Both the position numbers and the translations under genes were made by a program. Shown here piece after piece: positions 3,039 through 35,958 of a stretch of DNA of 35,958 nucleotides. How positions within the stretch are numbered: position 1 is the stretch's first letter; every line of letters starts with the position of its first letter. The notes beneath the pieces are model-generated. The model had not been told where the DNA came from and searched no databases. It saw only the letters and a program-made list of their open reading frames with translations. This DNA is from an uncultured Bacteroidales bacterium (GTDB lineage: Bacteria; Bacteroidota; Bacteroidia; Bacteroidales; UBA932), in the NCBI GenBank assembly GCA_945487035.1, contig CALYTI010000020.1, positions 1 through 35,958 of the forward strand. Reading direction: 5' to 3'.

Positions 3039-3064
3039 GTACAAGAGAATGGCCTGTGGTATAC
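3039..3064. repeat. REP hairpin upstream of RAYT, unit 1
   Basis: This is a 26-nt element beginning GTACA and ending TATAC, with an imperfect inner stem. It is a diverged copy of the GTACA-GG-AGAAG-GG-CTTCT-GG-TGTAC hairpin found downstream of the transposase. It is exactly 50 bp from the next unit at 3089. Confidence 0.6.
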
Positions 3065-3088
3065 AAACACGATGAAAACTGGCAGTTC

Positions 3089-3114
3089 GTACAGGAGAAG
3101 GGCCTCTGATGTAC
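3089..3114. repeat. REP hairpin upstream of RAYT, unit 2
   Basis: GTACAGG at 3089 and ATGTAC at 3109-3114 form the outer arms, and AGAAG/CCTCT the inner, partly mismatched arms. It is preceded by GGCAGTTC, the same flank as the downstream units. It lies about 100 bp before the RAYT start codon. Confidence 0.65.
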
Positions 3115-3143
3115 ATTATATTTGAAATATTCTATTGGTGAGA

Positions 3144-3174
3144 TTGGATGGTAAGGAAAAGTTGGCTACATTTG
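3144..3174 (+). promoter_or_regulatory. Promoter of the RAYT gene
   Basis: TTGG at 3144-3147, a 19-bp spacer and TACATTTG at 3167-3174 match the Bacteroidota -33/-7 promoter closely. The ATG of the transposase follows at 3217, giving a leader of about 35 nt. The promoter lies between the upstream hairpin pair and the gene. Confidence 0.65.
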
Positions 3175-3216
3175 TAGAAATACTATGAAAAGTGAAACCA
3201 TTTATTACTTGTTACT

Positions 3217-4122
3217 ATGAATCCCAAAGAAAAAGAAAGGCAATGCGAGAAGGCGTTTGATAGGGTGCAGCATTATTGGCACGCGTACACCTCCGGAAAA
3301 GAAACTCCCGTTCTATTCGTTAATGATGAGGACTTTGCGTTCGTGATGAATGTTGTTGCTTATGCAGCATATGAGAGACTTAAAAGTGTCAGGATTATTG
3401 CTTTTCAGATTATGGGAAATCACTTTCACTTTATCCTGATGGGGAATCAGGGTGAAGTAGAGGCTTTCTATGCCATCATCAAAAGAAAACTTTCCAGAAC
3501 TTTCCCCGAGATGAAGAATGTAAAACTGTCATTGAAGACTATTTGCGACCTAGCTGCATTGAGAAACAACATTGTCTATGTCAATCGCAACGGATATGTT
3601 GCACATCCTGATTATACTCCGTTCAGTTACCCTTGGGGAACGAGCCAATATTACTTCAACAGGTATCACTTCAATGGAGAGCTAAAGGATTTGTATAGCA
3701 GCACTCTTCGCATAATGTTCAGAGGACGTGACCCGCAATTGCCCGAAGAATGGAAAACTGTAGATAACAAGTACATCATTCCTGCTTCATATTGTGCAAT
3801 CAAATTCGGGATGTCATTGTTTAGAGATGCTCACCATTACTTTTCAATGGTGAGTAAAAATGTTGAAGCTTACAGCGGTGTTGCCACTGATATTGATGAG
3901 GATGATTTCCTTACGGATGGCGAATTGTTTTCAAAAATAATTACAATAATCAAAGAACAGTACAATACCGGAATGTTGAGAGACCTTTCAAAAGCCCAGA
4001 TTCTTGAACTTGCCCGAAAATTGCATTATGATTTCCGCTCATCAAATGCTCAGATACGCCGTTTGCTCAAACTGACTCAATACGAAGTGGATACTCTCTT
4101 CCCATTATCCGTAAAGTATTAG
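3217..4122 (+). CDS. REP-associated tyrosine transposase (RAYT, Y1_Tnp family)
   Basis: The 301-aa single-strand DNA transposase-like protein belongs to the HUH Y1 superfamily. The metal-binding HxH is GNHFHF (H69, H71). The likely catalytic tyrosine is Y121 in the block IVYVNRNGY, followed about 20 residues later by YPWGTSQYY, matching the family pattern (YI..NP..AG ... YPWSS). RAYTs are domesticated, single-copy relatives of IS200/IS605 TnpA and cut or spread REP hairpins. The C-terminal 100 residues (LRDLSKAQILELARKLHYDF...QIRRLLKL) look like a helix-turn-helix. Hairpins with GTACA/TGTAC arms flank the gene at 50-bp spacing, two upstream and seven downstream, which strongly supports a RAYT-REP pairing. 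It is preceded by its own promoter and is not part of an operon. Confidence 0.9.
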   Translation: MNPKEKERQCEKAFDRVQHYWHAYTSGKETPVLFVNDEDFAFVMNVVAYAAYERLKSVRIIAFQIMGNHFHFILMGNQGEVEAFYAIIKRKLSRTFPEMKNVKLSLKTICDLAALRNNIVYVNRNGYVAHPDYTPFSYPWGTSQYYFNRYHFNGELKDLYSSTLRIMFRGRDPQLPEEWKTVDNKYIIPASYCAIKFGMSLFRDAHHYFSMVSKNVEAYSGVATDIDEDDFLTDGELFSKIITIIKEQYNTGMLRDLSKAQILELARKLHYDFRSSNAQIRRLLKLTQYEVDTLFPLSVKY

Positions 4123-4132
4123 CAGTCAGTTC

Positions 4133-4308
4133 GTACAGGAGAAGGGCTTCTGGTGTACAAACCGGGGGAAAATCGGCAGTTCGTACAGGAGAAGGGCTTC
4201 TGGTGTACAAACAAGGAGAAAACCGGCAATCCGTACAGGAGAAGGGCCTCTGGTGTACGAACCGGGGGAAAATCGGCAGTTCGTACAGGAGAAGGCCCTG
4301 TGGTGTAC
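4133..4308. repeat. Array of four 50-bp REP units
   Basis: Hairpins begin at 4133, 4183, 4233 and 4283, exactly 50 bp apart. Each is 26 nt: GTACA, GG, AGAAG, GG, CTTCT (or CCTCT/CTGT variants), GG, TGTAC, followed by a conserved 24-nt spacer (AAACCGGGGGAAAATCGGCA and close variants). The first two hairpins are exact inverted repeats apart from the three GG bulges. The array begins 11 bp after the RAYT stop. Unit 2 onward belongs to the duplicated segment at 4182-4492. Confidence 0.8.
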
Positions 4309-4492
4309 GAACCGGCTGGAGGGAAGGAGAGGGAGGGAGGCAGGATGGCAGGCAGGGAGGCTGGTAGGGAGGGAGGCTGGCAGGCAGGTAGGCTGTACCC
4401 TCCAGGACCCATGGCCGCCCATGGCCATGTGAATGGGTGGCGCGTAGCGCCGGGATGGAGCGAAGCGGAAGGTCTCTGGAGGGCAGCAGCCT
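4182..4492. repeat. 311-bp direct repeat, copy 1
   Basis: The segment contains three REP hairpins (4183, 4233, 4283), a purine-rich tract (about 4317-4393), a CCATGGCC...CCATGGCC palindromic stretch, the small hairpin GGCGCGTAGCGCC at 4439-4451, and an end at GCAGCAGCCT. It recurs at 4505-4815 with a constant offset of 323 bp. By eye I found no difference between the copies, suggesting a recent duplication. Confidence 0.85.
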
Positions 4493-4504
4493 ACCTGCCA
4501 ATTC

Positions 4505-4815
4505 CGTACAGGAGAAGGGCTTCTGGTGTACAAACAAGGAGAAAACCGGCAATCCGTACAGGAGAAGGGCCTCTGGTGTACGAACCGGGGGAAAATCGGC
4601 AGTTCGTACAGGAGAAGGCCCTGTGGTGTACGAACCGGCTGGAGGGAAGGAGAGGGAGGGAGGCAGGATGGCAGGCAGGGAGGCTGGTAGGGAGGGAGGC
4701 TGGCAGGCAGGTAGGCTGTACCCTCCAGGACCCATGGCCGCCCATGGCCATGTGAATGGGTGGCGCGTAGCGCCGGGATGGAGCGAAGCGGAAGGTCTCT
4801 GGAGGGCAGCAGCCT
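4505..4815. repeat. 311-bp direct repeat, copy 2
   Basis: This is the second copy of 4182-4492, separated from it by 12 bp (4493-4504). It carries hairpins at 4506, 4556 and 4606, and its purine-rich tract lies at about 4640-4716. Because it starts inside the second REP unit, the hairpin itself may have been the recombination or cleavage point. Confidence 0.85.
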
Positions 4816-4910
4816 CCCTGCCTGCGGCGGCACACCGGCGGCGGCACACCGGCTGCGACACACCAGCAGCCTGCCTGCGACGGCACACCTGCAGCCTCCC
4901 TGCCCCCCCC
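4816..4910. repeat. Degenerate CGGCACAC short repeats
   Basis: Four imperfect units of about 14-28 bp built on GCGGCACAC / GCGACACAC / GACGGCACAC follow the second 311-bp copy, ending in a C8 run at 4903-4910. The stretch reads as decayed repeat DNA. No gene or regulatory site is recognised. Confidence 0.45.
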
Positions 4911-35520: not shown

Positions 35521-35580
35521 CCGTGGGTGCGACCCGGGTATGTGGCCTGGTTTGCCCTGGTTTGCTATGTGGTTTCCCGA
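35521..35580. repeat. Degenerate leading units of the 20-bp array
   Basis: Position 35541-35560 matches the array unit at about 14 of 20 bases, and 35561-35580 ends in CCCGA like array units. Decay at the edge is usual for minisatellite-type arrays. Confidence 0.45.
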
Positions 35581-35958
35581 TGTACCTTGGTGAGCCACAG
35601 TGTACCTTGGTGAGCCACAGTGTACCATGGTATGCCCCGGTGTATCTTGGTGAGCCACAGTGTACCATGGTATGCCCCGATGTACCTTGGTGAGCCATAG
35701 TGTACCTTGGTGAGCCACAGTGTACCTTGGTGAGCCCCGATGTACCTTGGTGAGCCACAGTGTCCTTGGTAAGCCCCGGTGTACCTTGTGGCGCCATGTG
35801 TACCTTGGTAAGCCCCGGTGTACCTTGGTGAGCCCCGATGTACCTTGGTGAGCCTCAGTGTACCTTGGTGAGCCACAGTGTACCATGGTATGCCCCGGTG
35901 TATCTTGGTGAGCCCCGATGTACCTTGGTGAGCCTCAGTGTACCTTGGTGAGCCACAG
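35581..35958. repeat. 20-bp tandem repeat array (at least 19 units, runs off window)
   Basis: The unit TGTACCTTGGTGAGCCACAG and close variants repeat end to end: 9 units of 20 bp (35581-35760), two of 19 bp (35761-35798) and 8 of 20 bp (35799-35958). The head TGTACC is constant except for rare T or deletion changes. The centre is TTGGTGAG or, in a few units, ATGGTATG, which creates a perfect TACCATGGTA palindrome. The tail varies among CACAG, CCCGG, CCCGA, CTCAG and CATAG. An 80-bp higher-order period is visible near the end (35819-35878 against 35899-35958). The minus strand has no stops in any frame, giving false open frames. Confidence 0.9.

Follow-up and report, generated by a model that had tools for sequence, protein, structure and literature searches.

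Fixed-pitch hairpin arrays beside a predicted, divergent REP-associated tyrosine transposase in Bacteroidales

REP-associated tyrosine transposases (RAYTs) and the repetitive extragenic palindromes (REPs) that accompany them are known systems, as are RAYTs of Bacteroidetes with atypical hairpins and REPs with a double foot (described in passages of PMC6006769, PMC3733652 and PMC8266576); open questions about them include the way in which REPs are multiplied and the nature of the unit that moves. Here we analyse a 35,958-nucleotide contig of an uncultured Bacteroidales bacterium (CALYTI010000020.1, assembly GCA_945487035.1; the window), in which a RAYT-like gene (3217–4122, forward strand) lies between head-to-tail arrays of GTAC hairpins stepped at 50 bp. 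Reading from sequence, we favour on balance a predicted RAYT–REP system with fixed-pitch arrays, 50 bp here and 50–52 bp in most of the relatives examined, in which the transposase likely sets the pitch. No title or abstract listed in our searches of a literature collection without most subscription journals mentions a fixed direct REP pitch of 50–52 nt, and we file these arrays as a RAYT–REP variant that is new relative to that literature.

With E. coli TnpA_REP (4er8), and the REPs and bacterial interspersed mosaic elements (BIMEs) that go with it, the locus shares a predicted HUH–Tyr fold, dispersed palindromes that flank the gene and an expected recognition of single-stranded hairpins. The window protein is longer, however (301 aa, with an extended C-terminal part); it has no tryptophan between HUH and Tyr (no W in residues 72–121, against W[QE] in the motif table of PMC6006769, as far as the passages go), it carries YVNRNG instead of Y..NP, lacking the NP that the same table gives after the Tyr motif, and no GT[AG]G guide stands beside its hairpins, GTAC being found in the window and other feet at other loci. 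Subclass 2.6 of TnpA_REP, to which passages of PMC6006769 assign Bacteroidetes RAYTs with non-GTAG hairpins, is alike in host and in having atypical, non-GT[AG]G hairpins, which stand on either side of the gene and are found again elsewhere in the genome. Its members have a median length of 179 aa, NH[LIV]H, WQ, YIH[QN]NP and a longer HUH–Tyr distance, whereas the window RAYT has NHFH, no WQ and YVNRNG in its 301 aa and therefore falls outside the subclass; the same passages do not mention a fixed pitch.

The hairpins have partial precedents of their own. 'Double foot' REPs of subclass 2.4, in passages of PMC6006769, repeat the foot at both stem ends, with GT[AG]G at one and its reverse complement, C[TC]AC, at the other; in the present group the feet are not uniform (GTAC, GTGC, GTCC, GTGA and others) and units repeat at a fixed pitch. 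A preliminary description of the window had taken GTAC at both stem ends for what would be an unusual recognition geometry, a claim we drop because GTAC is its own reverse complement, so that any stem opening with it must also close with it, and because double-foot REPs are already published. BIMEs pair inverted REPs across variable linkers (passages of PMC8266576), whereas the window group proceeds in direct 50–52-nt steps. REPINs are closer in that a doublet looks like the moving unit, is linked to a RAYT and has a spacer less conserved than its hairpins, but their doublets are mostly inverted (93% of 430) and commonly spaced at 71 or 110 bp (passages of PMC3116915). Neighbouring GTAC copies in the source genome were 50 bp apart in 12 of 13 pairs and 51 bp apart in the other, with the same orientation in all 13, so they are not inverted doublets; and a single 50–52-nt pitch runs over unrelated hairpins. 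Elements of the IS200/IS605 family such as IS608 share hairpin ends and, by expectation, single-strand Y1 chemistry; the locus differs in having no tnpA–tnpB element between defined ends, a unit with one hairpin, and a longer, diverged protein. Hairpin repeats with 24-nt spacers also look similar to a CRISPR array, but the GTAC spacers share sequence (70% mean identity).

The RAYT gene and its hairpins in the source genome

The window gene is a predicted, divergent RAYT, an identity already proposed for it and upheld here. H69 and H71 of the HUH motif and the putative catalytic Y121 were identical in 46/46 aligned sequences; an AF2 model of the protein (pLDDT 91.7) had 4er8, the E. coli RAYT–REP complex, as its top PDB fold match; and hairpin copies lie scattered over the genome. 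Against NCBIfam REP_Tyr_transpos the protein scored 19.9 bits, below the cut-off of 80, and it had no match in Pfam; at E ≤ 0.01, Pfam Y1_Tnp reached 10/44 sequences and REP_Tyr_transpos 14/44. Pfam gave nothing convincing for the C-terminal part, which the VIA-align fold list barely tests.

All nine hairpins claimed for the window were located, on the forward strand, and the step within each group is exactly 50 bp. Two lie on the 5′ side of the gene (3039–3064 and, 50 bp beyond it, 3089–3114); the 3′ array opens with the core form (4133–4158) and continues at 4183–4208, 4233–4258 and, with a variant loop, 4283–4308; and three more stand at 4506–4531, 4556–4581 and 4606–4631. Eight of the nine match the core pattern GTACANNAGAAGNNCTTCTNNTGTAC with at most three mismatches, as against none in 100 shuffles of the window; the copy at 3039, with four mismatches and no predicted fold (0 kcal/mol), is decayed. 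Positions 4182–4481 are identical to 4505–4804 across 300 bp (offset 323), a duplication that contains three hairpins and most of a second repeat, element B. The third group is therefore a copy of the second group's last three hairpins (4183, 4233 and 4283, in that order) and is not independent of it; there are two independent arrays, one per gene side, with two copies 5′ (one decayed) and four 3′. In its predicted fold the core form opens with 5 bp and continues through a GG/GG internal loop and 4 bp to a GGGC tetraloop (−3.2 kcal/mol, z −2.1, equalled by 7 of 200 shuffles), which keeps the hairpin but replaces the three GG bulges of the preliminary description, and the 24-nt spacer is constant in length though not in sequence.

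The source assembly (1.94 Mb, 60 contigs, 90% complete) holds the GTAC pattern at 27 sites on 13 contigs, and a reversed-pattern control at none. It had been proposed that relatives be searched for the hairpin and its presence compared with that of RAYT copies. Across 149 family genomes, four besides the source genome had one match each and the remainder none, while the reversed-pattern control itself gave one or two matches in several genomes; at most one match in each of 148 genomes rules out a GTAC sequence common to relatives, and the hairpin is private to the source genome. As far as this comparison reaches, the proposed check is passed. Three further intact RAYT genes of this genome, 54, 38 and 29% identical to the window RAYT, carry different hairpins, with no GTAC site at three or fewer mismatches near any of them. 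The 54% copy has GTGCGC hairpins and the 38% copy GCAAAA-type hairpins, both in 50-bp steps; the 29% copy, the most distant (L037, 4132–4258), has 57-nt hairpins (CGTTTTGGGATT...AATCCCAAAACG) 70 bp apart, a different pitch. The GTGCGC family occupies 34 distinct sites in the genome (40 matches, six of them repeating a site on the other strand), and the GTGCGC hairpin of the RAYT on contig C6 has a good predicted fold (−7.7, z −3.2). Elsewhere, at G000:C18:19610–20251, lies a RAYT relative that is broken and contains two stops.

Pitch across the RAYT group and along its tree

We examined 108 RAYT genes encoding about 300 residues, 46 from family genomes (34 nearer and 12 distant, of more than 150 matches listed) and 62 from named Bacteroidales metagenome contigs (18 of 80 loci were left out because their contigs had the same lengths as contigs already included); some loci are near copies of each other. 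In a hairpin-anchored test, the foot recurred 50–52 nt away in 86/108 genes, compared with 8/216 control flank pairs, drawn from genomes that have no RAYT match. By single lag there were 71 genes at 51, 17 at 52 and 12 at 50 (one gene may count at several lags); the remaining lags between 39 and 65 gave 0–5 each, and other lag triples 2–10. Near-exact 14-mers in the flanks of the 46 family genes recurred at lag 51 in 16 genes, 50 in three, 52 in two and 53 in one, against lag 51 in 1/400 random flank pairs and, in gene frames, one at 51 and two at 52. Exact 8-mers recurred at lag 50–53 in 29/46 genes, where about 1.4 would be expected, and at lag 49–53 in 52/62 genes of the second set. With short words the control, too, has a weak codon rhythm: 7-mers at lag 51 occur 3.4 times per 46 there, versus 25 observed.

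The hairpins that share this spacing are themselves diverse: a catalogue of one hairpin per gene, chosen automatically and in a few cases straddling the spacer, held 88 hairpins that fell into 60 sequence clusters at 75% identity, and in the arrays as printed, differing hairpins sit on an exact lattice. The unusual feature is the 50–52-nt pitch, a property of the RAYT group rather than of the GTAC sequence. Since the spacing is shared although hairpin sequences differ between genes, the enzyme likely sets it when moving or multiplying hairpins. Away from the genes, 386 kb of RAYT-bearing genomes contained five repeats at lag 50–51, of which at least four looked like hairpins by eye, and 400 kb from two genomes of the same genus without a RAYT match (G072 and G107) contained one weak lag-50 repeat with no good hairpin, as well as some hairpin-like repeats at lags 32, 66, 76 and 83.

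Pitch and RAYT phylogeny go together. In a tree built from 106 RAYTs, with two fragments left out, the 40 rows of clear pitch could be labelled with three changes; shuffled labels needed 7.6 on average, and 0/200 shuffles were as low, although near copies favour such clustering. The six rows labelled 50, the window RAYT among them, are set apart by a branch with support 96. About 60 hairpin clusters stand at one spacing beside one protein group, and its natural sub-clades, one base apart (50 versus 51), make possible a direct test of how swapping enzyme or pitch affects cutting. Of 198 genomes from the order, 40 that lie outside the family matched the family profile, with the listed matches all inside the first 186 of its 308 positions. 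In the shorter RAYTs of these other families, lag 50–52 appeared in 2/28 loci read, which is background, and a lattice general to Bacteroidales RAYTs is thereby ruled out. Such shorter RAYTs (L237–L264) are often flanked by hairpins, for example ACCTCATAGG...CCTGTGAGGT at L254, without the fixed 50–52 pitch.

How the pitch may arise

The RAYT may act on the hairpins that flank it. It would bind them as single-stranded DNA and cut at a fixed distance from the hairpin, so that neighbours one pitch apart would define a unit, each hairpin being both the left and the right end of a unit that contains one hairpin, as two IS200/IS605 hairpins are for a whole element. When two neighbours are cut in this way, units one pitch long would be released, and a unit joined beside another hairpin would make the array longer by exactly one step. 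Tentatively, and with more doubt than conviction, we extend this to the whole long-RAYT clade, which could be a molecular ruler that handles 50–52-nt one-hairpin units between two identical feet, the smallest IS200/IS605-like mobile unit, and builds arrays unit by unit from any hairpin its own protein recognises; if so, a domesticated transposase family would measure DNA length as well as shape. In IS608 the two end hairpins have the same orientation, and the right-end distance is about 9–10 nt. For the left end, positions +42 to +44 in passages of PMC5934647 put 41 nt between the cut and the hairpin's 3′ foot. Together the two distances would make a one-hairpin unit of about 50–51 nt, a lead and not evidence.

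Copies dispersed in the source genome bear on whether units move. Neighbouring GTGCGC copies were 50 bp apart in 18/21 pairs, with a mean spacer identity of 61%. One GTGCGC doublet stands at two places on contig C2 with an identical spacer and flanks alike at only 8 and 10 of 25 places, and two more doublet pairs have spacers 87% alike and flanks alike at 5–10 of 25; further doublets of similar appearance have one flank or both in common and may belong to larger repeats. Identical-spacer doublets with different flanks are consistent with moving doublets, the RAYT being a candidate mover that they do not prove. Half-hairpins at array ends gave a mixed picture (downstream, 5′ arm only in 59 genes and 3′ arm only in 32; upstream, 3′ arm only in 51 and 5′ arm only in 39), so we claim no cutting site from them. 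Flank conservation extends over −5 to −1 and about +1 to +13 in dispersed GTAC copies and over −5 to −1 and +1 to +5 in GTGCGC copies (rows read on both strands), and no common unit boundary emerged from the two. At L127, L132, L133, L138, L143 and L148, GTGCGC doublets sit in a larger repeat that also has the flank of one side or of both in common and is perhaps a composite mobile unit.

The arrays could also be binding sites under selection for spacing: the RAYT would bind neighbouring hairpins as a pair, selection would keep them 50–52 nt apart, slippage or unequal recombination would resize the arrays, and the protein would move nothing. The exact 300-bp duplication with its three hairpins does resemble ordinary tandem duplication, and the pitch is maintained while spacers diverge; this account nonetheless leaves unexplained both the dispersal of 27 and 34 copies in one genome and the identical-spacer doublet at two sites with different flanks, and we consider it rather unlikely. 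It is improbable that these are ordinary REP-like elements with the RAYT a mere neighbour, their pitch reflecting helix phasing for a host protein or their RNA hairpins serving transcript ends, even though 51 bp is close to five helical turns and roles in genome structure and gene expression have been assigned to REPs and BIMEs elsewhere.

For those roles we refer to passages of PMC8266576; here, RAYT genes have their own hairpin types, the pitch varies between 50, 51 and 52 with the RAYT tree, and it is missing from the shorter RAYTs that other families of the order carry. That we are dealing with a plain tandem repeat or an assembly artefact that happens to lie next to a transposase, with no wider meaning, would fit a window that is one of 60 contigs in a 90% complete assembly, and array sites that in some cases lie close to contig ends (C29, C41, C44 and C51), but about 60 hairpin clusters, taken from many genomes that were each assembled separately, have the same pitch, which makes this very improbable.

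Several observations weigh against a transposase that sets the pitch. Constant pitch inside one array could be inherited through ordinary duplication, and the 51-nt sum from IS608 draws in part on an approximate background value for the right end. The absence of the tryptophan and NP motifs of known RAYTs means that recognition must differ, and the folds of the copies at 3089, 4233 and 4283 are equalled by 65, 80 and 37 of 200 shuffles, respectively. The hairpin-anchored test fails in 22/108 genes, and the lag tests detect, by design, direct repeats only. An element shared by both flanks of the gene was direct in 54, inverted in 13, tied in one and not found in 40 of the 108 (a reversed control gave one false positive), and at L036 (source genome), L190, L194, L195 and L232 the arrays on the two gene sides are clearly inverted, unlike at most loci. 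GTGCGC pairs also occur at 49 (two) and 48 (one), and GTGCGC neighbours were scored as having the same orientation in 15/21 and opposite in 6/21, for a hairpin that is nearly symmetric. On the tree, 40/106 rows were judged clear (score ≥ 12, with one lag of 50–52 clearly best) and the rest dropped, among them L063 (52 at 14, 51 at 13), L032 (a tie of 51 and 53) and rows in which another lag led; L158, inside the 50 clade, shows 51 with a weak score, and L036, L057 and L058 show 50 yet form a separate clade.

Other repeats in the window

The window also contains two GTGCGC-type features: a doublet of the family of the contig C6 RAYT (499–576, comprising 499–526 and 550–576, 51 bp apart, with the start at 499 counted by hand) and a single hairpin (1159–1185). 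Element B, at 4380–4505 with a second copy at 4703–4822, is a palindrome in its own right, about 120 bp long and adjacent to GTAC hairpins. Its ends resemble GGTAGGCTGTGCCCTCC...GGAGGGCACAGCCTACC, and it has 16 matches in the genome, of at least two sequence types; it is also present at L075, L076, L079, L081 and L083, and several copies directly adjoin GTAC hairpins. At the end of the contig, a tandem repeat with a unit of about 20 bp (TGTACCTTGGTGAGCCACAG type) occupies 35567–35918.
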